Assembly (NCBI GenBank): GCA_001557505.1
Contig: LSAX01000005.1
Coordinates: 2,542,001 to 2,606,000, forward strand
Source: Reticulascus tulasneorum
Taxonomy: Eukaryota; Ascomycota; Sordariomycetes; Glomerellales; Reticulascaceae
Direction: 5' to 3'
DNA: 64,000 bases
Both the position numbers and the translations under genes were made by a program. Of the stretch, positions 14,095-44,913 are shown piece by piece; positions within the stretch are counted from its first letter, which is position 1, and each line of letters begins with the position of its first letter. The notes beneath the pieces are model-generated. The model saw only the letters and a list, made by a program, of their open reading frames with translations, had not been told where the DNA came from and made no database searches.

Positions 14095-14473
14095 ATGCCT
14101 CAGCCGCTTGTGCAACCACATTGCGGCACGCCCTATCTGAGCCTTGCTTGGGCCGAACAGGTACTTAGCAGGCGTTACAATGACCCAGTGCTACTGATGA
14201 ATGGCCTCGATGAGATCTTTGGCCGCGGAGAATACTCACTTAAAGTAGGAGCAAGCAACCTTACTTTTGATTGAATTGTCTGCTAACTATGTCTACCCAG
14301 ACCCAACGAGATCGGTGGATTCTTCGAGCACCACGGTGCCTGGAAGAGGTATGCCATAAGGTGTTATGCCCTTGATATGTGCTAATGATTGCCAGGATGA
14401 GATGAAAGGACTGGAGCAAAAGTCGTATCGACACTACACACGACAAAGCGAAGTTCGCAACGAAAAATGCTGA
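14095..14473 (+). CDS. tiny three-exon family, member 1
   Basis: 91 residues. Exons 14095-14244, 14301-14348 and 14396-14473; both introns are GT-AG in phase 0. Exon 1 ends DEIFGRGEYSLK, a predicted amphipathic helix followed by a strand. Exon 2 is the 16-residue TQRDRWILRAPRCLEE, a divergent form of the family motif that keeps the aromatic, the Ile-Leu pair and Ala-Pro. Exon 3 begins DEMKGLEQKS and continues as a charged tail. There is no signal peptide or membrane segment. It lies head-to-head with CorA-like copy A and tail-to-tail with kinase A (220 bases). I know no named family for it. The gene model rests on the shared exon structure of eight copies in this window, not on any external match. 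Confidence 0.72.
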
Positions 14474-14693
14474 GCCTCAGTTGTGTCCAATTTGGCTCAC
14501 ACTACCCTCCTACATACTTCAGGTCTCCTCTGTTACCTAAGTCACTAGAATGTGTACAATGCATGTATGTCGTCAGTGTCTCTTAAAGTCACTGTTGCAC
14601 CTTATAACAGACACTATCCAACATGATAAAGTGGCCCCAAGAAGCCTGCCAGCTCCGTTACAAGTGAATCTCTGTAAGATACATTGACCACGA

Positions 14694-16372
14694 TCAGAAG
14701 TCACAGTAGCCTTCTTGATTCTTACACCGCCAAGCAAGTTGCTTCAAATCAGATGCGACTTTCGGGCAACTCGAACGTCTAGATGGATCCACTTGCAACA
14801 TATCAGTCTCAATCAAGTGAAGGAAATCTCGCAAATAAGGGGAACATCGTTCGTTGCCTCGTAGCTTTTCCCGGATCCATTCAACAACCTGTGGCTTGAT
14901 CTCGGCATGTTGCTTGCCTTTGCCGTCTGCCTCCTCATTTATGATGCGGAAAAACGTGTCTGCATCTATGCCGTTAATATCTTTCTCCTCTCGAAATTCC
15001 GAAAATTCTTCAATGACGGCTTGGAATCCTAAGAGATACCATGTACAAAACTCTAGAAACGTGCAGCCGAGGGACCACACGTCGAATGCCCGAGAAATTT
15101 TGCCGCCTCGGAGGTCAAACTCCGGAGATCGATACGTTGGCGAGTTTTGTAGTCTGCTTGCGTCAATGTTCGACCTTGAAATCTTTCGGTGATAGTCGGC
15201 GAGGCCAAAATCATTCAAGACTAGTTTGCCAATTTGCCCATCATATCCGCTGCAGTTGGGGAACCACAAGATGTTGCTTGGCTTGATATCACCATGACGG
15301 CCATAGAGATCCTGATGTGGAGTTTCGGAGCCATGGACTGGCGGCTCGTATCGTTTCTGCTCATCGTGAATTAGACAGAGTGCAGATGCTAGCCCCTCGC
15401 ATTGGTCGGCCATCCATCTCATCAGCTCCACTGTCCGTTTGATATCCGAATGCTCTTCCCAGAGGCTTTGAAGATCTCCATGCGCCCAGGGGAGGATCAG
15501 ATAGTAGCTTCCGGACTCCGCTGGCGTCTCGATGGTGGCGAGCAGCTTGATCAGATGCTCGTTCTCCTTGTGACTGAACCGCTTAAGTACGGCTCGCTCA
15601 TTGCGGAAGACATCACGGTCGTATGAAATCATCTTTTTCAGTGCGAAATCATGATATGGGTTGTCAATCTAAAATTGCCGGTCAGTGTTCGACTCATGTC
15701 GACGAGCGTAGAGAGACCTACTCCGTAGTCACCAAATGAATAGTGTGAACTGTGAATGCGAACTCGTCTGACGGTCCCAAATCCACCAACCCGTTGCTGT
15801 ACTTTGGGGCTTAGTCGATTACCAGCCCTTGAAATAATTTCCACGCCAGTGGATGAGAGGTTGATCGAGTCCTTAGGCTTCTCGTCCTCATCAGTGATAG
15901 GCAGGACGTGGTTGTTGTCAAGGACGTAATGAAGAACATCCCCAGGAGGACGTATGAAAACGGGCGCCTTAACAGTGTACTGCTCTCGGCAAAAACTATC
16001 GATATGGCCCTGCCTCCAACTCTGTTTGGCGATGAGATAGACCAATTGCGGATCCTCGGGTTTCAATGGGAGCGATTTGTCATCCACATCCATCTCAATG
16101 AAGTGGACAATCGAGGTCTGCTTCTCAATCAATACTAGTGCAGCGAAAATGCACCGGAAGTCTTTTGCGTCTGATGAAGCAGGACAGACAGTCGATGCGA
16201 TCTCCCTGGCGGCTGAGCTGCCCAAGTCTTTGAGTATCGTTTGCTCCACAGCGTGGCGTAAGACGAGAGCCTCAATGTCGCATCGCGGTATGAATGTATT
16301 TTTGGCGTAGTCGCCCTTCGGGTACGCAATCCTGGCATCCCATAGCTCGCTATACAAGTCGGGGCTGCTCAT
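14694..16372 (-). CDS. fungal protein kinase A of the island
   Basis: 541 residues, exons 16372-15722 and 15668-14694. The N-terminal region of about 200 residues has no named domain but is shared with kinases B and C (YAKNTFIP near residue 22 and a segment around RCIFAALVLIEKQTSI). The kinase domain has a GGFGTVRRV glycine loop, DFALKK lysine, YGRHGDIKPSNILWF catalytic loop (HGD in place of HRD), LNDFGLAD metal-binding loop, YRSPEFDL and WSLGCTFLEF. All catalytic residues are present, so it should be an active Ser/Thr-type kinase. Its 3' end faces tiny gene 1. The upstream regulator and substrate are unknown. Confidence 0.88.
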
Positions 16373-16559
16373 ATTCTAGTTCTGGTCATCCACAAAAGTC
16401 TCTCAACCGCAGCTGGTGCATTCCTCGCCTGATTGGGCCGGTGCCTCCTCGTCAGGCTTACTCTAGGACTTGATGAGCGACGTTGATTCGATTTCGTGGT
16501 GTGATTGGTATAAGGGATAATGTAATTGTCCTGTAAACTGGTCGAGCTGTCAATTGCCC

Positions 16560-17185
16560 TCGGAATTGGGTAACCTCGGTGTCATCGCACTATTGACAAT
16601 CCCAGCCACCCAAGCAATGATTGGTTCTATTGCCAGTCTTACAACAAAGCAGATATGATAGGACACGTAGAACACCCAGTAGCAGGATCACCTTGGGTCG
16701 AGGAGCCTTGCGCTGCTTGCGAGGAGACTGGATCAAAGGCAAAAGTATTGGGCATTCCGCTGCGGCAAACAAACCGATACGCAGAAGCGGCAGTAGAATA
16801 GGCGACACCAAGACAACACAAAGTGAAAGATGAACTGGGAGATCAACGGTTATATCAAGGTCATGAAAATCTTAGTCAATGGGCAAGGCAACCAGATCTG
16901 CGGGCGTACAAAGCGGCATCTTTGACAGAGAGGCTCAACAAGACGCATCCCTAGACAAAGCATCAATAAGGCTGGCGAAGGCTCATTAGCGAGTCAGGCC
17001 GCAAAGCATGGTCACACAATGGCAAAGGCATGCGGAGAGTGTGCCCAGGCGCGAAAGGGAAAAGATATGCCTGTTAAAAGTCTCATCAGCGCCACTTTGG
17101 CAGACCGGCCGTCAAGACGGCTGCAGGTAGGCACTTCATCTCTCATCATCGGAGGCAAGAGCAAAGATGGTATTTAGTCCCCAGC
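16560..17185 (+). pseudogene. possible decayed Cys-x2-Cys protein gene
   Basis: Two long protein-like stretches in neighbouring frames. The first carries EEPCAACEETGSKAKVLG and is interrupted by TAG near 16798, continuing in the same frame to about 16953. The second, shifted in frame, carries MAKACGECAQARKGKDMPV. Both hold a Cys-x2-Cys followed by basic residues, as in zinc-knuckle or zinc-cluster ends, but the later cysteines of such motifs are missing. No intron set rescues one frame. I therefore read it as a broken gene, with chance open frames as the alternative. Confidence 0.33.
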
Positions 17186-18669
17186 ATCCACATTGGCCGC
17201 AGTCTATTGTTGTTACCGCACGCGAGCAAAGGAAAGATCTCTGAGATGGCAGTCTCTGGATCTAGTGATATTCGGATAAGCGGACCTTCTCCCGGAGCTC
17301 AATCTACGGCGACAACAATCACTGTTATTTCGACTCATTTTGCAAGAAGGCGCTGAGAGTTGTGTTCCGTAGGCAGCTGGCCATCTGTCAGCTATCTCTG
17401 TAGGTGGTCGTGGAAAAGACGGTTCGGGTCGACTTGGAGTGGAAGGTGTGCAGGCCATCACACCATCTTTGAGTTTTTGGACGACTGCACTGCCCACCAC
17501 CTAGGCCGGGATGTTGGGCATCTACGGCCTGAACAACATCGTCCGTCTGCGCCACGTATGAGATGCCAATAAAGGCGTAGTTCGGTTTGGAACAAGTGGC
17601 CAAGAAATCAAGGCCGCTGTAGCGACTGACCAGTGGTAAAATATCCTGTTCCGCGTGTCCACATTACATCATTTCCTGTCCTGGCTGCCTTGTGAAAGAG
17701 AAGTTGCTGGCAAGGTGATTAAAAGGCTGGCCTGGGTTCAGTCCCGCATTCCTCGATGATTGCGCCGCATATATGGATTTGCACCACATAGCACCCTGAA
17801 TTGGTGCTATGGCTGCCGCAGTCCAAGATCCACGACCGAGGATGGCAACTTCGGAGTCGGTCGGTGCTATTGGTAAGAGAACCACCGGAATGGTTGCATC
17901 GCGATGCCTCCGTGTGGCGAGCGACTGTGTAAGCGGATTAGCAGGTGCGAAAACCATTGGTCCACGTAGCAAGTGAATAACGAGAAAGCAATGCGGCCTC
18001 CCAAACGAACATTACACGGCAGTGTTCACGCAGTAATATGGACGGCAACTTTGACACGGCCAAGTTGGGCTGCTAAATCAGGTCGAGGTTTGAAGCTGCG
18101 GTCGTCAACTTTCCGAGACGCCTGGATAAATGCCACGCAGCATGGCTACGATTGCATTTCTGGAAGGGAAGGAATTGAACTGTCTGTGGAAATGAATCTG
18201 CCAGCAGAAAAATGCCGTTGGCTGAGACTAATCTTACGAGAAATCAATACTGCGGCGCCCCCCCACTAGCATGGCGGGTCTCAGCGAAAGCCTCAGAGCT
18301 CATAGGTCGAACGGTGGCGCAACATCAGCGCCAATTGATCTGATCAACAAACATGTGCAAACACAGTGTCACGAGCAGACCCTGTGCCATGTTCCTCGCC
18401 ACTAACCGTCTTTACGGCTTCGCTGTAAATCCGCTGTAAACCCCCAAAGTGCTTGCAATAACGAATGAAGTCGCCGCCCCATGCGAGGTGCGGGCGAAAG
18501 AGGCACATTCCACACCCTTGTCCTGAGACCGATGATCGCACTCTCTTGCATTAGAACTGACGTATAAGCAGAGCTCCAATGCCAGCTCAGTCCCGTCTGC
18601 GACCTTCACTCTGTCACCTTCACTCTGCAGATATCCTATCCTTCCTCAGTCGCAAGACACTCTACAACT
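17186..18669. other. gene-poor interval
   Basis: Open frames such as 17664-17972 (-) and 17973-18269 (+) have no recognised motif and no supporting splice pattern. The last 100 bases probably hold the promoter of tiny gene 2. Confidence 0.45.
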
Positions 18670-18985
18670 ATGCCTCGAGGTGGTGTGAAAAACGACATGA
18701 TGCCCAGCGACGGCCAAAGCTTGTTGGAGCTTCCTGGCCAGTACTTGAATCCGAAGAAGATGAAAGCGGACCTGGATCGACAATTCAACGGCGAGTACAA
18801 GGTGAAGGTGAGGAAAAAACTCCCACGCGCCGCTATACCACTGACACATTCCCAGCTACGCCGAGATGTCTACCGAATCGAAACGCCGTCAGAGCTGACA
18901 GAAGTGAGAGATCAGCCCACGACACCAGACCTGCATACATATTGACTGAATCCAGGCACAAGTGAGGGGATTCTATTCGAGGTAG
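18670..18985 (+). CDS. tiny three-exon family, member 2
   Basis: 71 residues. Exons 18670-18807, 18856-18903 and 18956-18985, introns in phase 0. Exon 1 opens MPRGGVKNDMMPSD and ends KADLDRQFNGEYKVK, the family helix-strand ending. Exon 2 encodes LRRDVYRIETPSELTE, close to the consensus. Exon 3 is only AQVRGFYSR and a stop. This member has no kinase or CorA-like gene directly beside it. The nearest neighbours are a decayed gene and unassigned DNA to the left, and a copia relic and PAC1 to the right. There is no secretion signal. The model depends on the family pattern; the exon 2 length of 48 bases and the clean GT-AG borders are the main support. Confidence 0.7.
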
Positions 18986-21597: not shown

Positions 21598-23057
21598 ATG
21601 AGTCGTATCCTAACACCTAGGCAGGCGGAGGAATTGTTCGTGCTTCCACACTACCTGCCTTCTATCGCTAACTGAAGCCCAGACACAAATCTATGATTGC
21701 CTACCTCACCTCGATAAACCTGCCCACGAGTGCCGCGGCGTTACGGGAAGAGCTAAAAATCGGTGATACCTTAGACGCTTCCACAAGTAAGAAGTATGAG
21801 GGGCTGTTGGAGAAGAAATGGACCAGCGTGGTTCGATTGCAGAAGAAGGTTGGCTCTTGCGATCGCCATTCCAGCATACCTATAGTAGATACTGACTCTC
21901 CGCAGATAATGGATCTGGAATCGAAGAATGCTGCGTTGCATATCGAGGTTGAACAGGCCGGACCAGGCGTGCAGTCTAAACGACAACGGGATCCTGTGAA
22001 CTGGCTTCCTAGAGCACCAGCACAATATACACTCCAATCGCATCGATTACCTATAAATTGTGTCGCTTTTTATCCGACCTTTTCCGTTCTCGCTTCGGGT
22101 TCGGAAGATTGCACAATCAAGGTTTGGGACTGGGAATCAGGAGAGTTGGAGAGGACAGTTAAAGGGCATACAAGAGCTGTTTTGGATCTCGATTTTGGCG
22201 GCCTGAGCGGAGGAATTCTTCTCGCATCGTGTTCAAGCGACCTCACAATCAAATTATGGGACCCAAACAACAATTATGCAAACATTCGAACACTTACGGG
22301 TCATGATCATTCCGTTTCCGCTGTACGCTTTTCTCCTTCATCTGGGAATATTCTCCTGTCAGCCAGCCGAGATAAATCTATCCGAGTCTGGAATGTGTCG
22401 ACTGGATACTGCGTGAAGACGATCCATGGACATGCAGGGTGGATCCGCGATGTCTTTCCTTCTTTTGACGGACGATGGCTAGTGTCCGGAGGCGATGACC
22501 AAACTGCAATGATATGGGACATGTCATCGGGAGAGGCAAAAGCCACCCTAATCGGTCACGAGCATTTTATCGAATGCTGTGCCTTCGCACCACCAGCATG
22601 CTACAGTCACTTGGCAACTCTGGCCGAATTGCCAAAGCCTCCCCCCCTTAGCAGTTCTGCCGAGTTCGTTGCAACAGGGTCAAGAGACAAGACGATAAAG
22701 TTGTGGGATTTTCGGGGGAGACTGATCAAGACACTTATAGGCCATGACAACTGGATCAGGGGTCTGGTCTTCCACCCCGGTGGGAAATACCTGATCAGTG
22801 CAAGCGATGATAGGACTTTGCGCTGCTGGGATCTTTCTCAAGAGGCACGGTTGGTGAAAACAATAGACGGTTCGCATGATCATTTCGTCAGTTGTATCCG
22901 ATGGGCTCCCAGCTTGACGGAAATAACCCCTACTGAACAAGTTGAGGGTGGGAGGAGTAATGGCATCTTAAAGGAGGAAGATGCCTCCAAGACGAGGATC
23001 AGGTGCGCCATTGCAACGGGATGTGTAGACTTCAATGTGCGAGTCTTCATGTCATAA
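21598..23057 (+). CDS. PAC1: LIS1/PAC1 (NudF) dynein regulator
   Basis: Nuclear-migration protein that binds dynein and NudE, 451 residues after splicing. Exon 1 is 21598-21635, exon 2 21683-21848 and exon 3 21906-23057. Exon 1 supplies [13 protein letters not shown] and the first junction restores the LisH helix ([13 protein letters not shown]). The second intron (21849-21905, 57 bases) has no stop and stays in frame, so it is easily read through. Removing it rejoins VVRLQKK to [11 protein letters not shown], the expected coiled coil. Seven WD40 blades follow, with [66 protein letters not shown] and [10 protein letters not shown], ending [12 protein letters not shown]. It looks intact. Some fungi keep two PAC1 copies; whether this is the housekeeping copy or an extra one cannot be told here. 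Confidence 0.95.
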
Positions 23058-23090
23058 ATATGGGCCTAGGACTCAATATGCAGATATAAA

Positions 23091-23210
23091 ACAAGTGTAA
23101 CAAGTGTAACAAGTGTAACAAGTGTAACAAGTGTAACAAGTGTAACAAGTGTAACAAGTGTAACAAGTGTAACAAGTGTAACAAGTGTAACAAGTGTAAC
23201 AAGTGTAACA
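23091..23210. repeat. 9-bp minisatellite, unit acaagtgta
   Basis: Thirteen perfect tandem copies of acaagtgta plus a partial unit, starting 33 bases after the PAC1 stop, so probably within its 3' UTR. The lack of any sequence divergence points to recent slippage. Confidence 0.97.
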
Positions 23211-27186: not shown

Positions 27187-27597
27187 ATGTACGCTACATC
27201 GGCAAATACTTTGTGTTCAGCCACCGAAAAGAGAAGAATGCCATCATCAAAGAAAGATGTGAAGCTCGTAGAGCAACAGATCGCGATTGCATATGGAGAC
27301 AGATCTATGCTTGATGAGGAATTGAAGAAGATATTTCCTGAACAGCCTTACAAAGTCAAGGTGCGCCATTATTTTCAAAATCCTCGTACCGAACGAGGGG
27401 CATGCGACTGACTAGACAAGATTAAATGTGGTTTCTTCCATTTACAAATTCCTAGGGAGCTTTCTCGGGTCCGTACACTTAAGGACATTTGCCTGGTCGC
27501 GTAGTTTGTTGCTTATTACCGTCTTACGCAGGAACAAATCGACAGTATCAATGCGAAGATTCGTGCCCATTACCAGACCCAATATGAGGAGTTTTAG
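27187..27597 (+). CDS. tiny three-exon family, member 3
   Basis: 95 residues from the ATG at 27187; a second in-frame ATG at 27241 would give 77. Exons 27187-27360, 27421-27468 and 27532-27597. Exon 1 ends LDEELKKIFPEQPYKVK. Exon 2 encodes IKCGFFHLQIPRELSR, the most diverged copy of the motif but exactly 16 codons, keeping the aromatic, Pro and Leu-Ser positions. Exon 3, EQIDSINAKIRAHYQTQYEEF, is a longer amphipathic tail. Introns are phase 0 with GT-AG ends. It sits between CorA-like copy B and kinase B exactly as member 1 sits in module A, with a 200-base gap to the kinase 3' end. Confidence 0.72.
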
Positions 27598-27797: not shown

Positions 27798-30700
27798 TTA
27801 TAAACAGCAGAATAACTTTCGAAGTTTCATCTTTAACCTCTCATCCGCAAGCTGCTGCCCGGGTGGTCCGGGAACTAGAGACTGATCTGTTATTATATCT
27901 CCATTCGTAGTAACATTGGGTGGTGGCGGCTGCCCCTGGCGGGAGTTTTGGCTTGAACGTGCGGATGGGTCCATCCCTTGGCGTGTCCTTCCATTCCCTT
28001 CTCTTTCTGTACTCTTTCCTTCTTCCTTCTCTTTGAAATGGTTCTGATCAGAAAAGGGAGAGGGAGGTGAGGAGCCCGCCTGCATTGAACAATTGATGCC
28101 TGGCTGCTTTTCGGCCCCATTGGGAGTACTTTCATCGTCTGCATCCTCGATATCGGCGGGACTTGCGCCATTTAGTGGGGCCGAATACTCCATATTTTCG
28201 GTCACCGACTGCCTAGTCCCCAATTCCTGTGATAATACGGCATGTGCCACAAGTTTAGGCTCAATCAAGCTACGGTCAGTCTGCAGAGTTGGTGCAAGCC
28301 TGCCAGGAACCATGATGCGTTCCGAACTCTGTGAGCTATCATGAACTGATGCTAAGGCTGATGAAGACTCGCGCGACGGCCTTTGATGAATGGGCATCAT
28401 ATCAAGAGGCGTGATCGATGGACTCGGTGCGTCTAATACTGGTTGGTGCTCGTTCGGGAGATCATCTGTTGGTTCTCTGTTGGGGAGAGCTGTTTTGGGT
28501 TCCAGTGGCATGGCCGCATTACCAGAGTTAGATACCTTTGGGCTTACATCTCGATTGCGTGGATTGCCGGACATGCAATATAGTTCGTCTGCTTGGCATT
28601 TCTTAGACATCTGGTCCAGCTTCTCCACGACCTCGGCACACTCTGCCCTGTCTTTCGGCTCTGGAACCAGTAGAGCTTCCATCACAAAGTCCAGGAAATC
28701 ATGGAGGTACGCGGTGCAGTTTTGATGTGAATGAAGATTGTCAACCCACTAGTCAACTGTCAGTCAAGTCCAACACGGGAAATTGGCGGATTCTACCTGG
28801 ATGACCGAGTCCTTGACCTGGCCGACTGGGTTGCCCCCAGAGTCTTCCTTCACAATCTTGAAGAACTTGTCTTCGGAAACTTCAACAGTACTGTCATCGT
28901 CTTGTCCACGATGCGATGCAAACGAATCATGAACAGCGTGGAACCCCTCCAGCAACCACGTAACGAACTCGAGATATAGACAACCTAAGGTCCACAGATC
29001 GAACGCCCGCGATACCGAACCGTCAGGGAGGTCGCATTCGGGCGGCCGGTACGTCAGTGAGACCGGCACAAATTTCGGATGGATACCGGAGCGGGACCGT
29101 CTGCTGTGAAATCTCGTCAAGCCGAAGTCTGTGATCTTGAGGACCCCATGTCCTACCCCGTTGCCGTAGTGGTTGAACCAGAGGATATTCTCCGGCTTGA
29201 TATCGCCATGTCGTCCGTATAACTTTCTTTCCTGAGAAGTCGTTCCGGACCTCCTTACGGTGAGACTATTGAGGTCGGAGCTGTGCTGGTAGTTGTGGAT
29301 GCTGTACAACCCTGTAGAAATGCCATGACACTGCTCTGCAACCCACAACATCAGCTCGCGATTTATCGTCGGCTGAGGATGAAACTCCCAGAACTCTCGT
29401 AGATTGCCGTCTGCCCATGGAAATACGAGATAGAAACTCTCCGCCCATTTGAACGTCGCCAAAAGTTTCGTGAGGTGGTTGTGCGGCTTGTTGCTTAATC
29501 TCTTAAGCGTCTCTACCTCCTGGTTGAAGTCAACTTCTTTGGGGGAGTTCAGCTTCTTGACTGCAAATGACGGGTCTCCCTCCTAATTCAATTAGCAGCT
29601 TCTACGTTCCATCGCGTTTACAGGTACTTACTGGAGGACAGTCAAAGTTGTGATGCCCACGATGGATCTTTATTCTCCAAACCATCGAATAACCAGACTG
29701 TACACCTGGTGACAGTCTCTCCGTATCCTCAATAAACGGCAAAACTATGCGTTCCTCAAGGGGGTAAAACCACACTTTGTCCTCACCGTCTGCCTTGGAA
29801 AAGAATGGTGAAAGCATTTTCCACTGATAGTTGTCGAAGGATTGCACCTGGTGGGGAGTCCAACCGTGGGATGCTTTCACGAACCTGTCGCCTGACCCCT
29901 TCCGTTTTAAGCGAGTGATGCCAGTCTTTCTGTGCAATGTGAACGGGAGGTCTATATCGCTCAAGGTTTCCTTGATGAAGTTCTGAATTGAGCCGACCTT
30001 CTCCATTAGGACCAAGATGGCGAATATCTTACGACCGCTCGTGTACTTGGGCTGTGACGAGCTAGAGGAGGAAGGAGAGTCAACACGATAGCGCTTGCAA
30101 ACGTAGTCTACGATATCCTTGATTTCTGCGTCGGTTAAAGGTGGTGATATGGATTGCAGCTCGGTTCGAATGGATGAATGTGTGATGAGTTCGTCTAGTT
30201 TGTTGATTGGAAGCCACACCCCTTTATTTTGGTGCGGATGCTGATGAAAAGCATCCACCAGTTGTTGTTGCAGCGTATATGTCTGCTGATCGATGCCGTC
30301 TAATTCCTCGAGGTGTTGATTAGAAGTACCACCAGTCCCCGACCCGATGTGCGCTCCAGTCTTCGACACAATGTGTGCTTTCGTTTCCTCCGAGAGAGTC
30401 TCCACAGGGGCTTGATTGAGTTGTTGACTAAGACCATAGTCGTAAACCGTACTGCTGTTTCCTGATGTTGCATCGATTCCATTTTGGGCAGTGCGTCGCA
30501 CATCGTTGCTTTCTGGCGCAGGCATTGTCTCGGCCCGTGAAAGAGTAATCAGAATCCCACCGCTCTCGTTTCGTTCGAGCACTGGAGCACTGGAAGGCGT
30601 AGCTTCATCGAACTCCGGCGGATAGTTGGTTAGCCCACCACGCATGGCGGCGAAAGGCGGAGAAGCCTCTGGGCGTGTACCTTGTGCATCTTGATACGCT

Positions 30701-30951
30701 TTGGACGAGGTCTATTAGAGGGTCGTTTAGCTGTTGAGAAGATCACTGAGCCAAATCATTGGAGTGGATTCGTGCTTACGACATCAGGTATAGAGTCGCC
30801 CAGCGGAACCTCCTTTTCAACTTGATTAGCGATCGCGAGGGTTCTTCCATCGGGTGGAGCCTCGTCAGGGACATGTGCTTCTCGAACCTAAACAGATTCG
30901 AGTCAGACGGCAACAAGACGTATCAACTATTAATCCAGTACTCACATGCAT
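27798..30951 (-). CDS. fungal protein kinase B of the island, with long C-terminal tail
   Basis: About 976 residues if started at the ATG at 30951; exons 30951-30946, 30887-30780, 30711-29632, 29582-28797 and 28748-27798 all join in frame. The 6-base first exon makes the start uncertain; the ATG at 30645 is the fallback. The N-terminal region shares VWLPINKLDELI and a KIFAILVLMEKVGSI segment with kinases A and C. Kinase motifs: SFAVKKL, YGRHGDIKPENILWF, ITDFGLTRF, YRPPECDL and WTLGCLYLEF. The glycine loop is poor (SGYSMVWRI). The 300-residue Ser/Pro-rich tail is unique to this copy and ends KLRKLFCCL, a basic stretch with paired cysteines that suggests lipid attachment. The 3' end faces tiny gene 3. 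Confidence 0.85.
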
Positions 30952-32012: not shown

Positions 32013-32343
32013 ATGCCAGCTTCAACAGGACCGCCAGCTGGCTCTGCGAGGCGTACGATCATCTCAAGCCGGATCATTGACCGCGAAAACCTTCTGACTG
32101 GTCTTGACAAAAAATTGGGCAAGAACAACTACAAATTGGAGGTTGGTTCGGAGCGTTGCGCTGTCCAGCGCAGGGGGTCATGTTGACAAAGTAAACCAGA
32201 TGCGTCACAACAACTGGATGGTCCTTACCAACGATACGCTGGATGAGGCAGGTAATCTTCAAATCCCTTCGTGGACGATTCTGATGCCATCACAGGGAGA
32301 TATCAAGGACATCATACAGTGGTCAGATTCGATATCGAGCTGA
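32013..32343 (+). CDS. tiny three-exon family, member 4
   Basis: 74 residues if spliced twice, 90 if only once. Exon 1 32013-32141 opens MPASTGPPAGSARR and ends LDKKLGKNNYKLE. Intron 1 is 32142-32199 (GT-AG, phase 0). Exon 2 32200-32247 encodes MRHNNWMVLTNDTLDE, the family motif with Asn in place of the usual Pro. A second intron may run 32248-32295 with a GC donor (gcaggt..cacag); it is 48 bases and stop-free, so reading through is also possible. Splicing would give the tail GDIKDIIQW, which matches the exon 3 starts of other members. Located divergently from kinase B, 1.06 kb from its start. Confidence 0.66.
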
Positions 32344-33333: not shown

Positions 33334-33422
33334 CGGAAAGTTCATGTTTGGGGTTTGGATTACCGCTTTTGGCTACCTGAACAGGAATTTTTCATCATTA
33401 TTCCAGACAGGGGGTTTTTATC

Positions 33423-33956: not shown

Positions 33957-34239
33957 ATGGGAACGAACAATGTGACTGAGCCCGAGAATGCTGGGGAGCG
34001 ACCCATGGAGGTGAAGCTGATCCACGCACGATATATCAGGAATCCGAGCAAGCTCTCTCAGCTTCTCAGACAGAAATATGGGCCAGGCAAGTTTGTCATT
34101 GAGGTAAGTGAGGTCCCATCCCACTGTTAAGATTAATACTTACCCCTATTTCTAGATGCGGCACAATGTCTTTTCAATCAAGACACCAGAGCCACTTTCC
34201 GACAAGTTTATAGCGAACCAACAAAGTATCACGATATGA
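33957..34239 (+). CDS. tiny family, member 5 (no second intron)
   Basis: 76 residues. Exons 33957-34103 and 34156-34239. Exon 1 ends LSQLLRQKYGPGKFVIE and also carries VKLIHARYIRNP, a segment shared with members 7 and 8. Exon 2 starts with MRHNVFSIKTPEPLSD, a near-consensus motif, then reads straight on to KFIANQQSITI and a stop. No phase-0 donor exists at the usual second-intron position, so that intron seems to be lost or never present. The first intron is GTAAGT..CTAG in phase 0, as in all other members. Followed on the same strand by the LRR-like gene. Confidence 0.75.
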
Positions 34240-34915
34240 GTGGCCAAATGCCAATTTACCATACTTGAACGCCCCGGAGAGCTTCTAACAATAACGGGCG
34301 CTGACTCTCCAGCCAGTTGAACTGCCGCCAGGTCTTCTTACGAATAACGATGTCACGAATCTCACCAATTTGTTTGCAATACGTACTGCTTCTCTGGTGG
34401 TTTATTTATACTTTGGTTTATGGGTTATGCAGGGAACGCATAATCTTTCCCAGATTGGGACGACTCTCAAAGTTTCCATATGCAATTCGGTGGTTACCGG
34501 GGTCTTGTTGGGTTATCACGGGCAACGTTGGGTCTCCCTGTCGGGTTTACGCAAGGTAGACAAGTAGAAAGATGAAAATGAGCCTAGTATCCTAGAAAAC
34601 TGTCATTAGCATCCTCCTCCTCAATATTTCTACATACCTCTCTGCCCAGCTCATAGTTTGAAATCGAGTCTCATGTGCGGGCTGTGGCGGTGCATGCTTA
34701 ACTACGGCGTGAATGCGAGCAGGGCTGGAAGCGAGATTAACTCCTGCCAGAACCAAACATACCCAAGTATGATCAGGCTTCTTTTTAGGCGTACTTGAGA
34801 GGCAGCCTCAGATGGAAAATGATACTAACTCACAAATTTCCACCAACTATATTGTTACGTCGCTTGAGGCCGCAATATAAATCTAGCCCTCCAGCTCTTG
34901 GTTCCAGTGTCACTA
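34240..34915. other. intergenic between tiny gene 5 and the LRR-like gene
   Basis: A hydrophobic open frame at 34317-34559 lacks an ATG start and homologous context. No further tiny-family copy found. Confidence 0.45.
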
Positions 34916-35908
34916 ATGGCTCCAGCAAACTACCATCGCTTTGGCGCTTCTCAGATACTGCGTCAGTTTTCTCATTCTTCAAGCCGCTTCCACAACCCCG
35001 CTATGGCCATGAACACTGGTGCCGGAAATGTAGCTTTTGGCGTAACCTGCCCTGGCAGCCTGATGCAGCACTTGCAGAGAGTGGACGCAGAGAAGGTTCG
35101 CAATATCAAAAAGCTGCAAACTTCGTTCAGCAAAGAGCAGGTTACCTGGCAGTGTCCTGTCGGGACCAGTGATTTGAACATCGTCAAAGGCTTTATTGAG
35201 GCGATCGACGAGCTTCAGGAGCTTTCCATCTTAAACTATGAAGCGGACACATCTGTTCTTTGGCCAGCAATATTCCATCATGCAAAGTCTTTGAACAGCT
35301 TAGGCATCCATACACCACCGCAACAGCAACTTGATGTGTGGACGCTATCCAATATCAAACGAGTCAACGACAGCTTGCCGCAGCTTAAGAGAATCGAACT
35401 AGATATTAGCCTCGAGGAAGCTGAGGCTCGGGCAAAAGAGTCCTCACCTCAGTCTGCATCCGACTCTCATCAGTCCTTGCCGTGTGCACTTGATGAAGTA
35501 GCCAAGCTAGACCGGCTAGAATCCATCATTATCAACATCAATCTGCAGGACAAGCCAAGCTTTTTTGCAGATGTGCACACTTGGAATGCCATGGGCACCA
35601 TATCTTTTCCCTCCCCAAACAAGGAGCAATGCAGCCAGTTGGCACGCCAAATATTCGACGACATCTTCAGATTCAATCAGAATGCTTCCTTGAAGCACTT
35701 GGAGCTTCGATTTCCGCGACGGTGCTGGGACGATCGATGTCAGTTCTGGACCGTGGCATACTCGGTACATGTTAAGAAGGACGATATGCAGGTGAAGGTG
35801 GAAGAGGACCACAGCTGGAAACAATACTTGCCAGAATGGCCAGCCTATGGAGATGGAATATTGAATGAGGTGGTCGACAAGGCGTATGCGGAGCAATTTC
35901 TCAATTAA
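34916..35908 (+). CDS. LRR-like protein, perhaps an F-box-type C-terminal half
   Basis: Single-exon protein of 330 residues from the ATG at 34916 (MAPANYHRFG). Irregular leucine-rich segments recur: IDELQELSILNYEAD, AKSLNSLGIHTPP, LPQLKRIELDISLEEAE, LDRLESIIININLQD and NASLKHLELRFPRR. This is the pattern of the LRR half of fungal F-box-type proteins. No F-box is visible at the N-terminus or upstream, so it may be a truncated or domain-split copy. It is tail-to-tail with kinase C, the position that a tiny gene occupies beside kinases A and B. No signal peptide. Confidence 0.65.
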   Translation: MAPANYHRFGASQILRQFSHSSSRFHNPAMAMNTGAGNVAFGVTCPGSLMQHLQRVDAEKVRNIKKLQTSFSKEQVTWQCPVGTSDLNIVKGFIEAIDELQELSILNYEADTSVLWPAIFHHAKSLNSLGIHTPPQQQLDVWTLSNIKRVNDSLPQLKRIELDISLEEAEARAKESSPQSASDSHQSLPCALDEVAKLDRLESIIININLQDKPSFFADVHTWNAMGTISFPSPNKEQCSQLARQIFDDIFRFNQNASLKHLELRFPRRCWDDRCQFWTVAYSVHVKKDDMQVKVEEDHSWKQYLPEWPAYGDGILNEVVDKAYAEQFLN

Positions 35909-36550: not shown

Positions 36551-38298
36551 TCAAGAAATCTCGGACACCGAAGCACTAGGAGTTGGTTTAACACAGTATT
36601 GCACATCTCCCAGACAGCGCTCATACAGGGCTTGAAGTCTGGTCGAGACTTCTTCTGCGGGCATTCGCACCTCACCCTTCTCTTTGGAAACAACCTTCAG
36701 CATACCTCTCTGTATGATGTCGAGGAAGTCGTGCACGAAACCGGTGCATTTGTTGTTCGCATGCAGTTTCTTGATCCACTGTGCAATCTTTATTAGCATG
36801 GAAACAGGAGAGATGACGAGAAGGGGGCAGAGGAGAACGAACCTCGGTAACAGATGGCTTCACAACAGCCAGCGAGGCGATCGCTCGACCACTGGAATCA
36901 TCGGTATCCACAATATTGAAGAACGGGTCAGATTCAATTCCGTACATGTCAGTAGACATGCGGGCATCTTCGAACTCCTCAAACAGGACAAAGCCTCCGA
37001 TCAACCAGGTAAGAAACTCAAGATAGACACAACCGAGGGTCCAAATATCGTAGGATCGTGAGATTTCTCCATCTTTCAGATCAATCTCAGGAGGCCGGTA
37101 GGTTGGAGAGTGCATAGGTTTGTGAGTGGGTCTGTATGATCTGCTCTTTTTGCTGTGGAATCTGGTCAGGCCGAAATCAGAAATCTGGAGATAGCCAAGA
37201 TCATCTTTCGCTTTGGGATCCTTGAACAGCAAGATATTCTCCGGCTTGAGGTCGCCATGACGCCCATATTTTCTTTCACCATCCGGGTTGGCGGTTGGCT
37301 CTTCGTCGGCCACCTTCAGCACATGAATTGACTCAAGGGCCGATGCCACTCCTACACATTGCTGAGCAACCCATCGGACCAGTTTTACATCCGTGGGAGG
37401 GTTGGGCAGAACTTCCTCCCAGAAATGCTTAAGGTCGACTTCTGCCCACGGGAACAGTAGGTAGTATTTGCCATTGTGGGAATACGTCGCAAGCAAGGAG
37501 ATCAAGTGGCGGTGTTGATTACCACTAAGACGCTTGAGGATCTCGACTTCGTTCTCAAATGCTGCCTTATCCTCGGAGAGCAGATGCTTAACGGCAAACG
37601 TGTTTGGGTCTCCCATCTACAACGACATGATCAGTGGTGGGTCTGAAATAGCAGGCGTACTTGGGACATACGCATGGTAGGTTGTGGAAGTCATGATGAT
37701 CCGGATGCACAGTCACCCGCGAGACGTGGCTAAACCCGCTTTCGACCTTATCATCGCGCATTTCGCGAGTCCAAGGCAAAATTGTTCGCTCTTGGAGCTG
37801 GTAGAACTGAACATTTTCCTGTGCATCTTTGGCGAAGACGGGGACGAGCACTTGCCACTGCTTGTCATAGAAGAGACCGATCTCAGTGTCTTTCTGTAAA
37901 TCCGAGAAGTTCAGCGCCTCGTCTCCGCTCCGTGCCAACTTATATCTTCCTCGTCTTCTGCCGGGAACGAGCCGTAATGGGAGATCTTCATCATCGATGC
38001 CCTTTTCTATGAACTCCAAGATGAGTGGGGTTTTGTAGATCAGAACAAGAATGACAAAAATCTTCTTCAAGGAACCACAGGAGGTATCGCCGCAGATGAT
38101 GTGGGCATGCTTGCGTGCGATGCTTTTATCCAGACCGGGGACTTCTTTATCGAGTTCATCTGTGACTGTGTCTACAGTTATGAGCCGGGAGAGGAGGCCA
38201 TTCGGTACAAAGGCGTTGCCATACTCGTCATCGGGCTGGATTGCCGCCAGTAGCTGCCCCTGCAGAGACACCGAGGACTCTTCTGAATCAGAGCTCAT
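36551..38298 (-). CDS. fungal protein kinase C of the island
   Basis: 545 residues, exons 38298-37672, 37616-36843 and 36787-36551. The N-terminal region matches kinases A and B (NAFVPNGLLSRLI near residue 28 and KKIFVILVLIYKTPLI). Kinase motifs: TFAVKHL, YGRHGDLKPENILLF, ISDFGLTRF, YRPPEIDL and WTLGCVYLEF. The glycine loop is degenerate (SGFSHVSRV), as in kinase B. The end after the catalytic core (FVHDFLDIIQRGML) is homologous to that of kinase B (YLHDFLDFVMEALL). It lacks the long tail. It is closer to B than to A by motif and intron position (the first intron falls before GDP in both). No CorA-like gene is adjacent. Confidence 0.9.
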
Positions 38299-39571
38299 GA
38301 TATCTGAACACCCTGAGAGATATGCAAACAGTGATAATAGCGGTAGTCAAAGAACAATTGCATCAAGGAAGCCCAAAAAATGGAAGTTTAAGACAAAAAG
38401 GGGCAGAAAGACTTGAACAGCGGGCGAGACTGGAGAGAACAGGGGCTCTAGGCTCGAGAAGAATACAATAGGGACACTCGAGTTTAAAGAAGAATGCGGC
38501 TCATGCTTGAGAGTCATCGACTGTTACCTTGTTCGTTGAAGCGTAGCCTTCACCGCCTGAAAGGCCCCCATGCCGGCCGTTCAAGCGACCTTTGATCGAT
38601 CTCGAGTCCTCGACTCGATGCCCGACGACACCTTTAGAACGTAGCCTTGCCTCACCGTAATCATCGGCGCTATTTACGCTGAGGCATCCTGTTACACAGG
38701 GAGGCACGGCCAGGCCACACGCCGGGCTTCGTACTAGGGTCGGGCCCCATCTAGTCTCTGCTGCTATTAACTGTCGTGAGTGGTGAGGTCTTGTCCGTGG
38801 CTCCCGCGCTGCCTAAAGAGGCTCAGACTTGAGGCTCGCGTGTTGGCTGGGAGAGTACAGCTGCCAATTAAGCTGCTTCACTGCTCAACTCATGGAGTCA
38901 TTGTGGTAGGCATGTGTGTGCCACGAACACTTTTGAGGTCAGAATATCACGGCCATGTCAATGGCGGCGGTGCCCTTGTATATAGCGGCACATCGGCCAT
39001 AAACGTCCGGCTTTGCGCCCGCTTTTACAGCTATAGGATAACAACCTCCTCCAGCGCCATTACTCGCCACCAACGTCGACTGAAGCTATGCCATCGGCGA
39101 CTCTCGAATGGTTCACATCCCACTTTGCTCAAACAGATAATTGACGTAGGTGAATAACTACGAGCAGGGTATACGGTACATTCAAAACAAATCTCAGAAT
39201 CACGATATTAGCGGCGAAGAGCGGCATCAAGGGGGCATAGAATGTCTAGTGGTGTGAAGGAACCACCCACCCTCTTCTGCGTGCAGGAGGGTATATATCT
39301 TCGACAGGTTTAGCTGTCCGCCACCACAATAGCGGCCCAATGGTCTGCCCTCGTTTCAAAAGCGGGAGGCCGTACGGCTAAGATGGAAGGTACTGTAGAA
39401 TCCCGACGTGGCCAGTCGGAAAGCGGTCGACGTCGGAACGTGGTGTCACATGAAATGTTCAAGGTTAGGCTCCTGTGCATTTAATATGGTGGGCTGCCCT
39501 CTTCACGACCCAAGACCTTGGACAGAAGCCGACCTTAGTTGCACTTTGTTTACTGTCTTGCCCAATTTTCA
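38299..39571. other. intergenic between kinase C and tiny gene 6
   Basis: Open frames at 38051-38416 and 38780-39157 are unsupported; the first is mostly antisense to kinase C. It probably holds the divergent promoters. Confidence 0.5.
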
Positions 39572-39938
39572 ATGCGCGCAGCATCCATGGAGTCCCCACC
39601 TTCGGTCCAAACGCCGTTGTCAACGGGCGCATTTGCATCATGGAGAGATCCCTACACGTACCAGAAGGTTCCTGGCCGCTTGGTAGATCAAGAAAAGTTG
39701 GTGGATTTGCTTGACAGCAAATTCGGAAGGGGAGGATATAAGGTTGAGGTGAGTTGACTTGGTGATCTTTTCGCTGGCCCTATTTGACGGCTCTACTGAT
39801 GTTTGTCCGTGCAGCTTCGGCACAATCTGTTTACCATACGTGCGCCAAAACACTTGTCCATGGTGCGCCCGATCATGGCGAAGCTGACCCGTTGGGAAGC
39901 TAATGAGCTGGCAGCGCGATATAACGCAATGCTACTGA
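39572..39938 (+). CDS. tiny three-exon family, member 6
   Basis: 82 residues from the ATG at 39572 (or 77 from 39587). Exons 39572-39748, 39815-39862 and 39915-39938. Exon 1 ends LVDLLDSKFGRGGYKVE. Exon 2 encodes LRHNLFTIRAPKHLSM. Intron 2 (39863-39914, GTGCGC..GCAG) is stop-free at its start and can be read through to a 182-codon frame, but splicing gives RDITQCY and a stop, matching the short Cys-containing tails of members 7 and 8. I prefer the spliced form. First of three consecutive copies to the right of kinase C. Confidence 0.7.
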
Positions 39939-41576
39939 CGTATGACCTCGACGTGGCCGCGCGAATTTTGTGGCATTCGAAAAGGCTGAGATGGTGTGGA
40001 CTGGCTGCATGCCGGTGCTGCCGGAGTGTTAGGCCTTCAAACGACGAATGGGGAAACGAATATCCAGATAACCGCAGATGGAAAGTGGCTAATCTGATAA
40101 GATTGCTGGAAGTGTGCCGGCTCAGGATCCTTTTAGTCAAGCATCATGTAGGTAGCTGCTTTGGGCCGTTTAGTAGAGTGGGAGAGACGAGAGCAAATGT
40201 GACTGCTTTTGCGGTGCAGCTGTGGCGCTTAATAGGTGACCATGATTCGGCGACTGCCACTGTGTGTGCCCAGAACAGCCAACAGTCCTGGACATTTCGC
40301 CACGACTCTTCCTTGAATGGCAGTCTTACTAGAAAGAGAAGTAGCTTTTGAGACAGAACCGATAGGAAAGTTCCCCGTAGATCTTGGGGCTGTGTGTGGG
40401 CGGCTTGACAACAAATTATCTGCCAGCACCTCTCTCACGATCGGAATGATGAGCGGCCCACAAGCGTGGGCGGCACGACCCGCGAGCACACATCTGCATG
40501 TGAATCTTGGCTGTTAGAACTCTGGCATACTTCTCGAATCGAATGGGCACTGTAACTAGGCACGAAGTCGGGTAGCTACCTTTCCGGCTTTGGTTACATC
40601 AGACTCCCCTGAACAGATCTACCAAAATACAAACAGTACTCCGGCTTTCCGTCACTGGCGAATGCCTAGCCTGTTCGTTCGTTCTTAGGGGTCTCATCTT
40701 GTATTTCAGAAGCCACGACAATTCGGTGCTGTCTCGCGGCGCGAGCCCCGGGGGCCGGAAATCAGCATCGATAGCTTGGTCATATCTATATCAACCACAG
40801 CCAATGGCGCAACCTTGCCGATTCGAGATGAGGAGAAAAACTACACGCGCACCACGGCCAAATTACTACAGTGATGCGAGCACTGTTCTTGGATCAAGCC
40901 GCCCAAACGTCATGGGCCTGGGCTACTACGTGGTAGCTGTGCCACAGCTACGTTAAATATACGCCCCCCACGACTTCTAGAACAAAGTACGGGGTACGTG
41001 GGCAGCGAATGATTTCACTAGTGGAAAAGGACGGACTGGCTGCGACACTATCCTGTATTCGCTTTCCCTGGACGATCCAAGTAAGCGAATCGGACGACAG
41101 CATCCCCAGCAGCAACACGGACATTTCAGCATCAAGTCTTGTGAAGCCACACTTTTAGGAGCTCGTACAGCAAACAAATTCTTAACGTCAACTTTTGTTT
41201 CACCGATCGCCTAGTTCTATTTAGCTCTGTGTCAGTTATGATACAGGCTCATTTCGCGTCTTTCTTCAATTGGCAGCCACTTGGCGGCTGGAATGCCAAT
41301 GATACGTGTCCTTTAAACGTAGGTCTTTGTATCATGGGCCAGCAATTAGCTACCCGCCCACGGGTAGCCTCCCTTTAGGCGTCCGCCAAATCGGAAGGGA
41401 GTATCTTGCATACCATCCCTACATGTTTCCCATCAAATTTCACATGCTTCAGCTGAGGGTTCGTGCAGTTCCTCCACCTGCGCCAGAGAAAGTGCTCAAC
41501 GGAGCAATAAAAGGGTGGATCTCCATAAGATTTAAGATCTCAAGCTTCTTTCACCCTACCTATTCAACCATCGTCA
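39939..41576. other. intergenic between tiny genes 6 and 7
   Basis: The open frame across 39803-40351 is the unspliced continuation of member 6. The rest has no supportable gene. Confidence 0.5.
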
Positions 41577-41928
41577 ATGGACAACTCGCCGAGGGAAACC
41601 TCCGTCAAAACTCGCCCTCCTTTCTCCTTCCCACCTCGCTGGGTCATCTCAAAACAAGTGATCCATGCAAAGTATGTGTGGCATCCGTCTGTCCTTCGCG
41701 ATGTCCTTATAAGAAGATATGGGCAGGGGAACTTCTATGTCGAGGTGAGTATCTTGGGGCTGAGGATGCTGCATGGTGGAAGCTTACTCGTCTCCATAGA
41801 TGCGACACAACGTATACACAATTTGGGCGCCAGGAAGGCTCTCTTTGGTCTGGGCTTCTTCCATCGCGGCATAAGCACGTTCAGCTAACTTGAGCTCCCG
41901 CTAGATCGAATTAGAATCTTGCCAATGA
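41577..41928 (+). CDS. tiny three-exon family, member 7
   Basis: 79 residues. Exons 41577-41744, 41800-41847 and 41905-41928, introns in phase 0 (GTGAGT..ATAG and GTCTGG..CTAG with a GCTAAC branch). Exon 1 contains KQVIHAKYVWHPSVL and ends RRYGQGNFYVE. Exon 2 is MRHNVYTIWAPGRLSL, which I take as the reference form of the motif. Exon 3 is IELESCQ and a stop, nearly the same length and ending as member 8 (KDVDACQ). These shared tails are strong internal proof that the second intron is real. No signal peptide or membrane helix. Confidence 0.8.
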
Positions 41929-42962
41929 CTGGAGTGCACGGCGGGGAATCCAACAGCATATATTATGCACAGGTGTAGGCTCCTCGGTGGTTCTCAAGGC
42001 TCGGACCCGGTAGTCTTGCAATTTACTCCCTAATGCAATCAGTGACCAGAGGTCGTATTCCTCTTCTATCCACGGGGTTCCCATGACCCCAGTAAACCAA
42101 GCGAGGCAATAGTGGGACGTGGCGCACATAGAGTGGAGCCCTGGCGTACCGAGACCATGGTCCGTATCCTTTTGGATTGTCATCCTCAAATCGGCCAAAT
42201 CCCTGCGTCTCGCCAGCCTCGGTAAGACCTCGATGTAAGAAGGTGCTTAACTCTGAGTTCAGGACGCGAAAGAGAGCTCAGGCAACCCACCAAAGGCTCT
42301 TACCAGGCTCAATCGTGCAGAGAATGCAGATACAGACTTTTGGTACTCTTACAGTGTTGATCGTAGTGATAGCAATCATGCGTTTTACGAGGATCAACTC
42401 AGAGGATGAGGCGGCAGTTTGTTGGCAGTTTGTGCCCTAGATCGATTGTCGGCGGGCGAAGATATTGCTATTCTCTAAGCATAGAGCAACCTGCAGTGTC
42501 ATAGATCGGTGGGAGCAATTATTTCAATGGCGTATCTATCAAAGTATCAAAGGTCTCACTAAATTCACGGTAGTTTTCATCAGTGTCTAATATGGAGTAG
42601 AAGCATTCCGGAAACTTTAATCATATATTAGGGTATCTTCTACATAGGTTGGCGTTACATGCCCCAATTGCTGTACAATCAGTCTACTAAGACAGTGATC
42701 TCCTCAAACCTGAGCATTAGCGAGAGGGCTAGCCGGCCCAAGCCAATGACGCAGCCCATGCACCCATGGCTGCCATGAATTGGTAGGTCCAGATGAGCCT
42801 CACAGCTTGGTAGAAGTGAAGACTTGGCAAAATGAGCGTTGCTAAACTCAGCAGACAAAAGAAATTCACTGTGCATCACGCTGTCAGTAGAATCAAGAAA
42901 AGCATCAGCTAAATGAGTTACAATAATGCAACCCATATTCAAAAAGGATGAAGAAAAAAAAG
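41929..42962. other. intergenic
   Basis: No gene or repeat I can support. It ends at a tRNA gene on the - strand. Confidence 0.5.
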
Positions 42963-43049
42963 AGGCCTGTACCAGGTTTGAACTGGTGTCTTTGGGAACT
43001 TTGTTCTTGAAATCAAAACCCAACGTCCTGACCACTAGACTAACGGGCC
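42963..43049 (-). tRNA. tRNA-Gln, anticodon TTG, with a short intron
   Basis: Reading the - strand, the 7-bp acceptor stem GGCCCGT pairs with ACAGGCC except for one C-A mismatch. The D arm is GTCT-loop-GGAC. The anticodon stem TTGGG/CCCAA carries the loop T-T-TTG-A, interrupted after position 37 by an intron of about 15 bases (starting TTTCAAGAAC). The T arm is ACCAG-TTCAAAC-CTGGT. Intron position and cloverleaf fit a nuclear tRNA. The discriminator base would be T. Confidence 0.82.
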
Positions 43050-44568
43050 TAAGACGTGCTACTTGCAAGAATTGGCTTATTTTAAATTATATAATCATTA
43101 GGTATCCGTGCATGACCACCCAGTCACGTGGCAGTTATTCCGGGACCTCAGCACACTAAAACCCCAGGTAAGCCTAAACCGCACTAATAACATGCCTGCA
43201 ATTCTACTCTGAAGTGGATGTGATTTATGGGATGTGAATATGCAGCTAGCCTACTTTATACCAGCTTCTGATTCTTCGTGGTCCACCAACAGGATGACTA
43301 ACCAACACTACTAAATACTTCATGACGCGGAATGCAGCTTTCAAAGATGCCACATCGGCTGGCCTTTTGTTCTACCGCGGAGTAATACACTCGGTGTCCT
43401 TCAAGCCCCCGAACCAATTCCAATACCCTACTTGTAATACGAGTGCGCTCACTTAGTTATTAACGACTTGTATTCCAGTGGTTCTGGCCCCAGCAGCTTA
43501 ACGCTACAGAGCCTCAGTGGAAATCTGTCTTGAAGGACGGTCCGGGAATTGGTTGGGCGGCGGGTGCAGAAAAAAGTGTGTGTAGGTACAGGTGTGCGGA
43601 GTTTATACTGAATATGACCTGGAATGAACAACTCCAGTTCGTGTTTACACATGTGAAAATGAGATAAAAGCTTCAAAACTTTCGGAAAATCGAAGGCATG
43701 ATTAAACATTTAGAGGTGTTTATCGTTTTGCTCACTCTACAGGTGTGCAGATAGTGATAGCTTGCATTGAAACAACACTGTCTTGGGCCACAGCACAACA
43801 GTCAAAAGGAAGTCTATCGGTCCATTCAATGATAGCCAAGGCGCATTCGCATTAATGCGTCTTTAAACACTTTCTCCTTTCATGCTGCTAGCCTTAACTG
43901 AGTCATTTGCGAACGATTTTCCCATCGCCTACCAATTTAGCGTGTAATAGCAACAGAATCACCTAGTGCATGTTGGGCCTGGGAGTTCCAACCTAAAACC
44001 CTCCCCCCTGTTTGCACATCGCGCCACCACGCCAGCTTTTCACAGGTGACGTGTTATTCTCGCCGAGGCTTATGTACGGCGGCCTCACTACCATTAGGCA
44101 TTAGAGAATGGTGCCTGGCATGAGCAGGAAACTGAACCTGACAAGGGCGATGGCTCTTAGGCTGCCTATTCTGTGGACTGGTAACTGAGTCACGAGTTTT
44201 CCTCTATGGTAGAAACGATTGCCACAAATAAAGGCTGCCAAATAATTTAACTTATACACATCTCTAAAATTTGACTCATCATGGAATCTATCATTTTTGT
44301 CCATACGAAGCTCTTGCGGCCCTAGTAGACATAAGGTCGACGCCAAAGTTCATGTATTATTGATAAACAAATGCCACGTAAGTTATCTGACCATGAAGCA
44401 CTTGTCTTAGTATTGGTGTCAACTTGCTGATGTATTTCGGGCTTAATAGCCCAGATGTATGAATAAGACAGTTCTATCATATCCCTCCTTTCACACGACG
44501 AGTCGATTTTTAAGTTGCACCACAAAAGCTGACCCCATTTTCGACCATTCACGGACCGAACATTAAGA
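43050..44568. other. intergenic between tRNA-Gln and tiny gene 8
   Basis: Short frames on the - strand (43449-43709, 44101-44346) have no motif. Nothing else seen. Confidence 0.45.
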
Positions 44569-44913
44569 ATGATTGATGAAGGTCTTGACGTCAAATCTAC
44601 AGTACAATCCACCTGCTGCAGCAAGATACCCATGGAAAAGCAGGTTATTCACTCGCGATTTATCTGCGACCCCTTCAAGCTATCGGATCTACTGAAACAT
44701 CGACATGGCAAGGGAAACTACAGAATCGAAGTGCGTTAGTTACATTTATATTTTTGAAGCGGACTATACTAACAAACTGATACAGATGCGACAGAATGTC
44801 TATACAATATGGGCTCCCACACAGTTAGCCTGGGTATTCAAACACTGCAGAAGCACTCAACTACAACCAAGTTGCTGACACGCGAACAGAAAGACGTAGA
44901 TGCTTGCCAATGA
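44569..44913 (+). CDS. tiny three-exon family, member 8
   Basis: 77 residues. Exons 44569-44730, 44786-44833 and 44890-44913, introns in phase 0 (GTGCGT..ACAG and GTATTC..ACAG with a GCTGAC branch). Exon 1 contains KQVIHSRFICDPFKL and ends LLKHRHGKGNYRIE. Exon 2 is MRQNVYTIWAPTQLAW. Exon 3 is KDVDACQ and a stop. It is the closest relative of member 7 by all three exons, pointing to a recent duplication. It is the right-hand border of the island; the next gene is an unrelated NTF2-like protein. Confidence 0.78.

Follow-up and report, generated by a model that had tools for sequence, protein, structure and literature searches.

Tiny genes with a 48-nucleotide middle exon accompany protein kinases that carry an undescribed N-terminal domain in Reticulascus tulasneorum

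The stretch analysed here, called the window, comprises 64,000 nucleotides of the fungus Reticulascus tulasneorum (contig LSAX01000005.1; G000:C17:2542001-2606000 in our numbering). It carries eight tiny genes (g1 to g8) of one family, and the three large minus-strand genes lying among them were identified with Pfam as protein kinases (K1 to K3). Further members of the tiny family stand close to related kinases elsewhere in the same genome, and we propose that the tiny proteins are partners of these kinases. The genes are given below with positions counted from the first letter of the window; D marks a tiny gene past the end of its kinase and U one that lies upstream of it in divergent orientation. 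K2 and K3 are given as spans of open reading frames (ORFs), so that their exons are approximate.

g1, 14095-14473, plus strand: D type; exons 14095-14244, 14301-14348, 14396-14473; 91 amino acids; 221 bp past the end of K1, convergent
K1, 14694-16372, minus strand: kinase; N-terminal domain ORF 15638-16372, kinase domain ORF 14694-15632; PF00069 E=1.9e-17
g2, 18670-18985, plus strand: U type; exons 18670-18807, 18856-18903, 18956-18985; 71 amino acids; divergent from K1
g3, 27187-27597, plus strand: D type; exons 27187 or 27238-27360, 27421-27468, 27532-27597; 201 bp past the end of K2, convergent
K2, 27798-30711, minus strand: kinase; N-terminal ORF 29602-30645 (open to 30711), kinase 28764-29462, tail 27798-28685; PF00069 E=4.4e-12
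g4, 32013-32343, plus strand: U position; exons 32013-32141, 32200-32247 and, if a GC-AG intron is accepted, 32296-32343; divergent from K2
g5, 33957-34239, plus strand: exons 33957-34103, 34156-34203, the latter read through as far as a stop (34239); 2.3 kb away from the 3' end of K3, an ORF (34898-35908) intervening
K3, 36554-38346, minus strand: kinase; N-terminal ORF 37588-38298 (open to 38346), kinase 36672-37616, end of the C-lobe to 36554; PF00069 E=3e-20
g6, 39572-39938, plus strand: U type; exons 39572-39748, 39815-39862, 39915-39938; 82 amino acids; divergent from K3
g7, 41577-41928, plus strand: exons 41577-41744, 41800-41847, 41905-41928; 79 amino acids; 3.2 kb from K3
g8, 44569-44913, plus strand: exons 44569-44730, 44786-44833, 44890-44913; 77 amino acids; 6.2 kb from K3

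A sequence-only reading of this DNA had placed eight tiny genes of one three-exon architecture at these starts, with splice phase and length preserved. All eight starts hold an ATG, the eighth gene stops at position 44913, and g3 has a further in-frame ATG at 27238. Each exon 1 closes in phase 0 at a GT and is followed by an intron of 48-66 nucleotides with an AG end (48-83 nucleotides across all 15 tiny genes, eight in the window and seven elsewhere), and exon 2 measures 48 nucleotides in 8/8, so that the shared architecture as well as the constant phase and exon-2 length are borne out. The third exon fared less uniformly. For the second intron, GT-AG ends can be assigned in six of the eight genes (14095, 18670, 27187, 39572, 41577 and 44569), with acceptors chosen by eye and some weak donors (GTCCGT, GTCTGG). 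In g4 this intron can only be placed as GC-AG, at the conserved junction (GAG/GCAGGT ... CACAG, 32248-32295), and g5 shows no clear second intron.

The front of exon 1 is variable and its conserved tail spans about 30 residues before the intron, approximately [VI][IV]-x-x-[RK]Y-x-x-P-x-x-L-x-x-x-L-x-x-x-[FY]G-x-x-x-[YF]-x-[VIL]-[EK]. An example of the exon-2 peptide is MRHNVYTIWAPGRLSL. Directly after codon 16 of this exon a GT is found in 11/15 tiny genes where 1 in 16 would be expected, a count slightly biased by the one point that the scanner awards for this GT. Exon 3 is short and was read by eye in the copies outside the window (n1 to n7: n1 and n2 on contig C34, n3 and n6 on C1, n4 on C2, n5 on C4, n7 on C32). 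It ends in x-[ED]-[LIV]-x-x-C-[YQR]-stop in five genes (g6, g7, g8, n1, n4) and forms a helix-like tail of 20-25 residues in g1, g3, n6 and n5. The second intron of n3 is not clear. By eye, n2 (L037:2422-2255, minus strand) lacks one at the expected junction and runs straight on as LSH/RELRRC; this read-on agrees with what other copies have as exon 3 (x-[ED]-L-x-x-C), and intron loss is probable.

That these genes form one family, as had been supposed, is supported by profile scans, by a relative in a large protein set and by the seven further copies. The profile combined 21 residues at the end of exon 1, a GT..AG intron and the 16 residues of exon 2. In the window only the eight genes score above 14; a leave-one-out scan refinds 7/8 of them, missing g3 (27187), and no other window match reaches 8. 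Random Markov DNA of the same make-up (1 Mb, both strands) gave a highest score of 15.2 with the first-round profile. Built from the eight genes and the relative P0001, the profile was run on 199 kb outside the window, 159 kb around kinases and 40 kb beside the window, within a genome of 35 contigs and 42.8 Mb. It detected seven further tiny genes on five other contigs (scores 56.6, 42.3, 33.9, 32.0, 28.5, 18.9 and 18.7), and the family thus occupies six contigs: C17, C34, C1, C2, C4 and C32. The 40 kb beside the window contained no match to the two-exon profile. The two weakest copies (18.9 and 18.7) exceed the random maximum by a small margin, and their inclusion depends on gene structure and on the second round. 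In that round, over 263 kb, the 15 members scored 49.0-78.9, values that are high by construction, the best non-family match scored 13.3 and random DNA reached at most 13.4 in 2 Mb. An alternative, lower-scoring reading of the C4 copy (31.9) was left uncounted. Pairwise identity among the tiny genes is 7-49%.

Evidence on splicing comes from the same protein set, in which four relatives were found at E <= 1 among 166 candidates (P0001-P0004). P0001 reads ...GNYRAE-MRHNTYEIWAPSKLTT-NEIQWL..., with both predicted junctions joined. P0002, P0003 and P0004 are nearly identical to it but carry 20 residues (60 nucleotides) between both exons, in P0002 VSYASRLSKTILQRADEVSQ, and continue with VGKPS... 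after exon 2, as expected of an unspliced GT...AG intron and of a GT donor. The joined form beside the read-through forms supports splicing in a relative and not in the present strain itself. P0001 probably derives from a transcript; its record is silent on its origin, and an intron-free gene copy is possible.

The sequence-only reading knew no named domain for these proteins, and this agrees with the searches: neither Pfam (best E 0.016, for one of 16) nor NCBIfam (best E 0.079, for one of 16) gave a significant match for any of the 16 members, and there was none among the sequences of PDB. In PHROGs, for which P0001 and P0003 alone were scanned, the best value of 0.031 was not significant. 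Structure prediction, proposed earlier for the joined proteins, was run on P0001 from an input of nine rows that combined it with the exon-1 pieces of the window. The block-mean predicted local distance difference test (pLDDT) value was 89-92 across residues 21-70, and the model has a strand (22-27), a helix (34-45), two strands (51-55 and 58-63) and a helix (69-76). The predicted fold is thus beta-alpha-beta-beta-alpha. Compared with this model, the helix-hairpin-helix minidomain suggested before lacks the first strand. Exon junction 1 (residues 53/54) falls inside the first hairpin strand of the model, exon 2 (54-69) would supply the remaining hairpin and a P-x-x-L-[ST] cap, and exon 3 the last helix. 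Fold searches with the model returned generic alpha/beta matches only. A pattern strand-x-P-x-x-L-helix can be seen both in the exon-1 tail (RYIRNPSKL) and in exon 2 (VYTIWAPGRL), and MAFFT tends to align the one to the other; an internal repeat is possible.

The Pfam scan of K1 to K3 gave PF00069 scores of 63.9, 46.4 and 73.2 bits against a curated cut-off of 31.7. The catalytic lysine motif reads FALK, FAVK and FAVK (found with a loose pattern), the catalytic loop HGDIKPSNI, HGDIKPENI and HGDLKPENI, and DFG is present in all three. Their N-terminal domains (15638-16372, 29602-30645 and 37588-38298, minus strand) matched no Pfam family, and a search of the large protein set with that of K3 gave no match at E <= 0.001. 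Genome searches with the N-terminal part of K3 and with that of K1 yielded eight loci each, in union nine kinases: the three of the window, two each on C1 and C34, and one each on C2 and C4. All nine are also among the 23 matches of a search with the kinase domain. By eye, three more distant relatives have a similar N-terminal part (C34:926k, C32:403k and C35:704k). H-x-D was present in 12/12 kinases viewed and H-x-D-x-K in 11/12, which suggests that a kinase activity to be regulated probably exists. The C2 kinase (G000:C2:2126367-2127338) has HGDLN instead of HGDxK, and its activity is doubtful.

The tiny genes are linked to these kinases in this genome. A tiny gene lies within 2.3 kb of each of the nine kinases with the N-terminal domain; for the C1 217k kinase the coordinates give a distance of about 1 kb. 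Geometry was analysed for 14 tiny genes, leaving out n7 and with approximate gene ends outside the window. The median distance to such a kinase was 1.1 kb, whereas placing genes at random within these stretches gave 5.4 kb (p 2e-4), and 12/14 tiny genes lay within 2.5 kb, a result equalled by 0/20,000 random placements; the 2.5-kb cut was our choice, and tandem copies are not independent.

The positions themselves recur. Four D genes (g1, g3, n6 and n5), spread over three contigs, lie on the other strand past the last codon of a kinase, at about 149, 201, 221 and 267 bp in order of distance, and all of them face it. Upstream of and divergent from their kinase are g2, g4, g6, n1 and n4, and likewise, farther away, g7 and g8. 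Two copies are arranged differently: n2 lies upstream on its kinase's own strand, and n3 is on the same strand as the nearer of two kinases and divergent from the other. In trees of 16 sequences (four labelled as past the end, seven as upstream, five rows unlabelled), a single branch divides D from U in 78% of the bootstrap trees; shuffled labels gave values as low in 1/500 cases for D and 7/500 for U. There is thus a hint of two old types of tiny gene.

Taken together, we consider that the tiny proteins are a rapidly diverging family of about 70-90 amino acids and dedicated partners of kinases with an undescribed N-terminal domain, likely binding this domain and setting the activity of the kinase. 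We give this reading a probability slightly above one half (about 0.53). That the mini-protein works with the kinase is suggested by a linkage kept through deep divergence, by the repeated positions and by the kept catalytic motifs. Exon 1 would provide the first strand and the helix and begin the hairpin with most of its first strand, exon 2 would complete the hairpin and add the AP-x2-L-[ST] cap, and the last helix would come from exon 3. The folded mini-protein would act as a small subunit, sensing or holding, that binds the N-terminal domain of the neighbouring kinase and sets the activity of this kinase, and D and U genes may supply one kinase with two different small partners.

Signalling genes with a small partner gene next to them are known as a general kind. 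At het-B of Podospora anserina (PMC10890737), Bh encodes a HET-domain protein and Bp a PII-like protein of 115-132 amino acids; the vicinity of the genes is kept in 28/31 taxa possessing both, and Bh1 and Bp2 cooperate in incompatibility. The adjacency of a small-protein gene to the gene of a larger signalling protein is found here too. The proteins differ: Bh combines HET and lectin-fold domains with a PII-like partner, Bp, whereas a kinase stands beside the tiny family here and no Pfam model matches that family. In two-gene incompatibility loci of the het-B kind, divergent alleles of the neighbouring genes set off cell death when they are mixed. Fast divergence, multiplicity and the het-B example make recognition of self or of intruders a guess, if a fair one. 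In a bolder version, which we regard as distinctly unlikely, D, U and the kinase would form a three-gene recognition unit, with D and U as opposing keys (holding and releasing) on the N-terminal domain and with units that multiply and diverge like immune receptors and would help the fungus to recognise self or intruders.

When flanks of equal length (about 1.5 kb) around the kinase domain were compared, a tiny gene was found at 4/9 of these kinases and at 0/10 lesser kinase matches (L019-L028; hypergeometric probability about 0.03, by hand); this control speaks for the linkage but is modest. Several observations weigh against the proposed partnership. The stretches were chosen around kinases and give a poor estimate of how frequent tiny genes are in the rest of the genome. 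Neither g7 nor g8 has a kinase to itself. Among the more distant relatives, the C35 kinase (704k) has no tiny gene within 20 kb, that on C32 (403k) is separated from its tiny gene by about 4 kb and by another ORF, and C34:926k only shares n1, at about 3.4 kb. A clean layout of D plus U is seen only at K1 and K2; of the two tiny genes at the C1 213k kinase, one follows the end of the kinase and the other lies upstream on the same strand as the kinase, and a D-weighted scan gave no further D genes. The branch between D and U has weak support (58/50), none of the inner branches reaches good support, and in an identity test 19/330 label permutations were as high.

The most serious alternative is that tiny gene and kinase are co-duplicated neighbours without a functional link. 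Both families multiply locally (three kinases and eight tiny genes in 31 kb), adjacency can be maintained by co-duplication alone, and g7 and g8 show that tiny genes multiply without a kinase. As the equal-flank comparison gave only 4/9 vs 0/10, we lowered our confidence in the partnership from 0.55 to 0.53 and raised this alternative, which we still hold to be unlikely while giving it serious weight: across six contigs with 7-49% identity the pairing has outlived much sequence change, position and orientation of the D genes are identical at four loci, and none of the ten lesser kinase matches has a tiny gene at 1.5 kb.

Improbable in our opinion is a poison-antidote element of the spore-killer kind, with a harmful tiny protein and the kinase as antidote. 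In SPOK proteins of Podospora, a predicted kinase domain confers resistance (PMC6660238), and the loci here are multi-copy and fast-diverging. SPOK proteins unite a killing (nuclease) and a resistance (kinase) domain, the latter thought to be closer to eukaryotic-like kinases. The two systems share fungal multi-copy loci with a kinase domain; in our case small protein and kinase are encoded separately, and the kinase matches Pkinase of Pfam. A Pfam scan of seven kinase ORFs gave no nuclease match, the fold matches of the tiny-protein model are generic, and nothing indicates drive or harm.

It is very improbable that the tiny genes arose by breaking off from copies of the kinase N-terminal domain: an aromatic-x-[IVL]-x-x-P pattern is common to both by eye (REQYTVKAPVF in K1, RHNVYTIxAPxxL in the tiny proteins), but a profile-profile comparison of 16 tiny proteins with nine N-terminal domains gave a probability of 0.4% (E 0.15) and aligned another region, so that the idea is unsupported at this sensitivity. 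Chance readings of open frames, which the short variable exons and the outside copies at 18.7 and 18.9 might recall, are hardly credible in view of the second-round gap between 49.0 and 13.3, the low random maximum, the leave-one-out result and the joined junctions of P0001.

Other genes of the window comprise a HET-domain protein (PF06985; 3954-5705, minus strand) of the heterokaryon-incompatibility type, roughly 8 kb away from g1, a MYND-finger protein (6430-7815, minus), a protein with DUF1996 and WSC domains (10508-11566, plus) and an AA9 polysaccharide monooxygenase (47035-47736, minus). The HET, AA9 and WSC genes suggest a filamentous ascomycete. A protein of 454 amino acids at 21693-23057 (plus) matches WD40 families in Pfam and presumably resembles LIS1/NudF.

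In the literature and databases searched, we found no description of the tiny family, of the kinase N-terminal domain or of their pairing. Adjacent genes of NOD-like receptors (NLRs) and their effectors, which share amyloid motifs, are reported to act as one signalling unit (PMC9815663); there the pair shares a motif, whereas here no homology is detectable between tiny proteins and kinase N-terminal domains. Fungal genomes contain numerous kinases that lack a class or a role. For Fusarium, expanded unclassified kinases are described whose role is largely open and for which more work is called for (PMC6001611). By description, these resemble the kinases found here in being multi-copy and outside named families; the main text of that paper contains neither 'small protein' nor 'adjacent'.

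The company of kinases, the copies elsewhere in the genome and the hint of two positional types go beyond what was noted before on this DNA. A middle exon of 48 nucleotides makes the tiny genes hard to find by ordinary gene finding, and the profile of 16 members allows the pair of tiny gene and kinase to be sought in other fungal genomes. If the proposed partnership is true, the recurrent mini-protein neighbour would be a candidate regulator for kinases that lack a class or a role.

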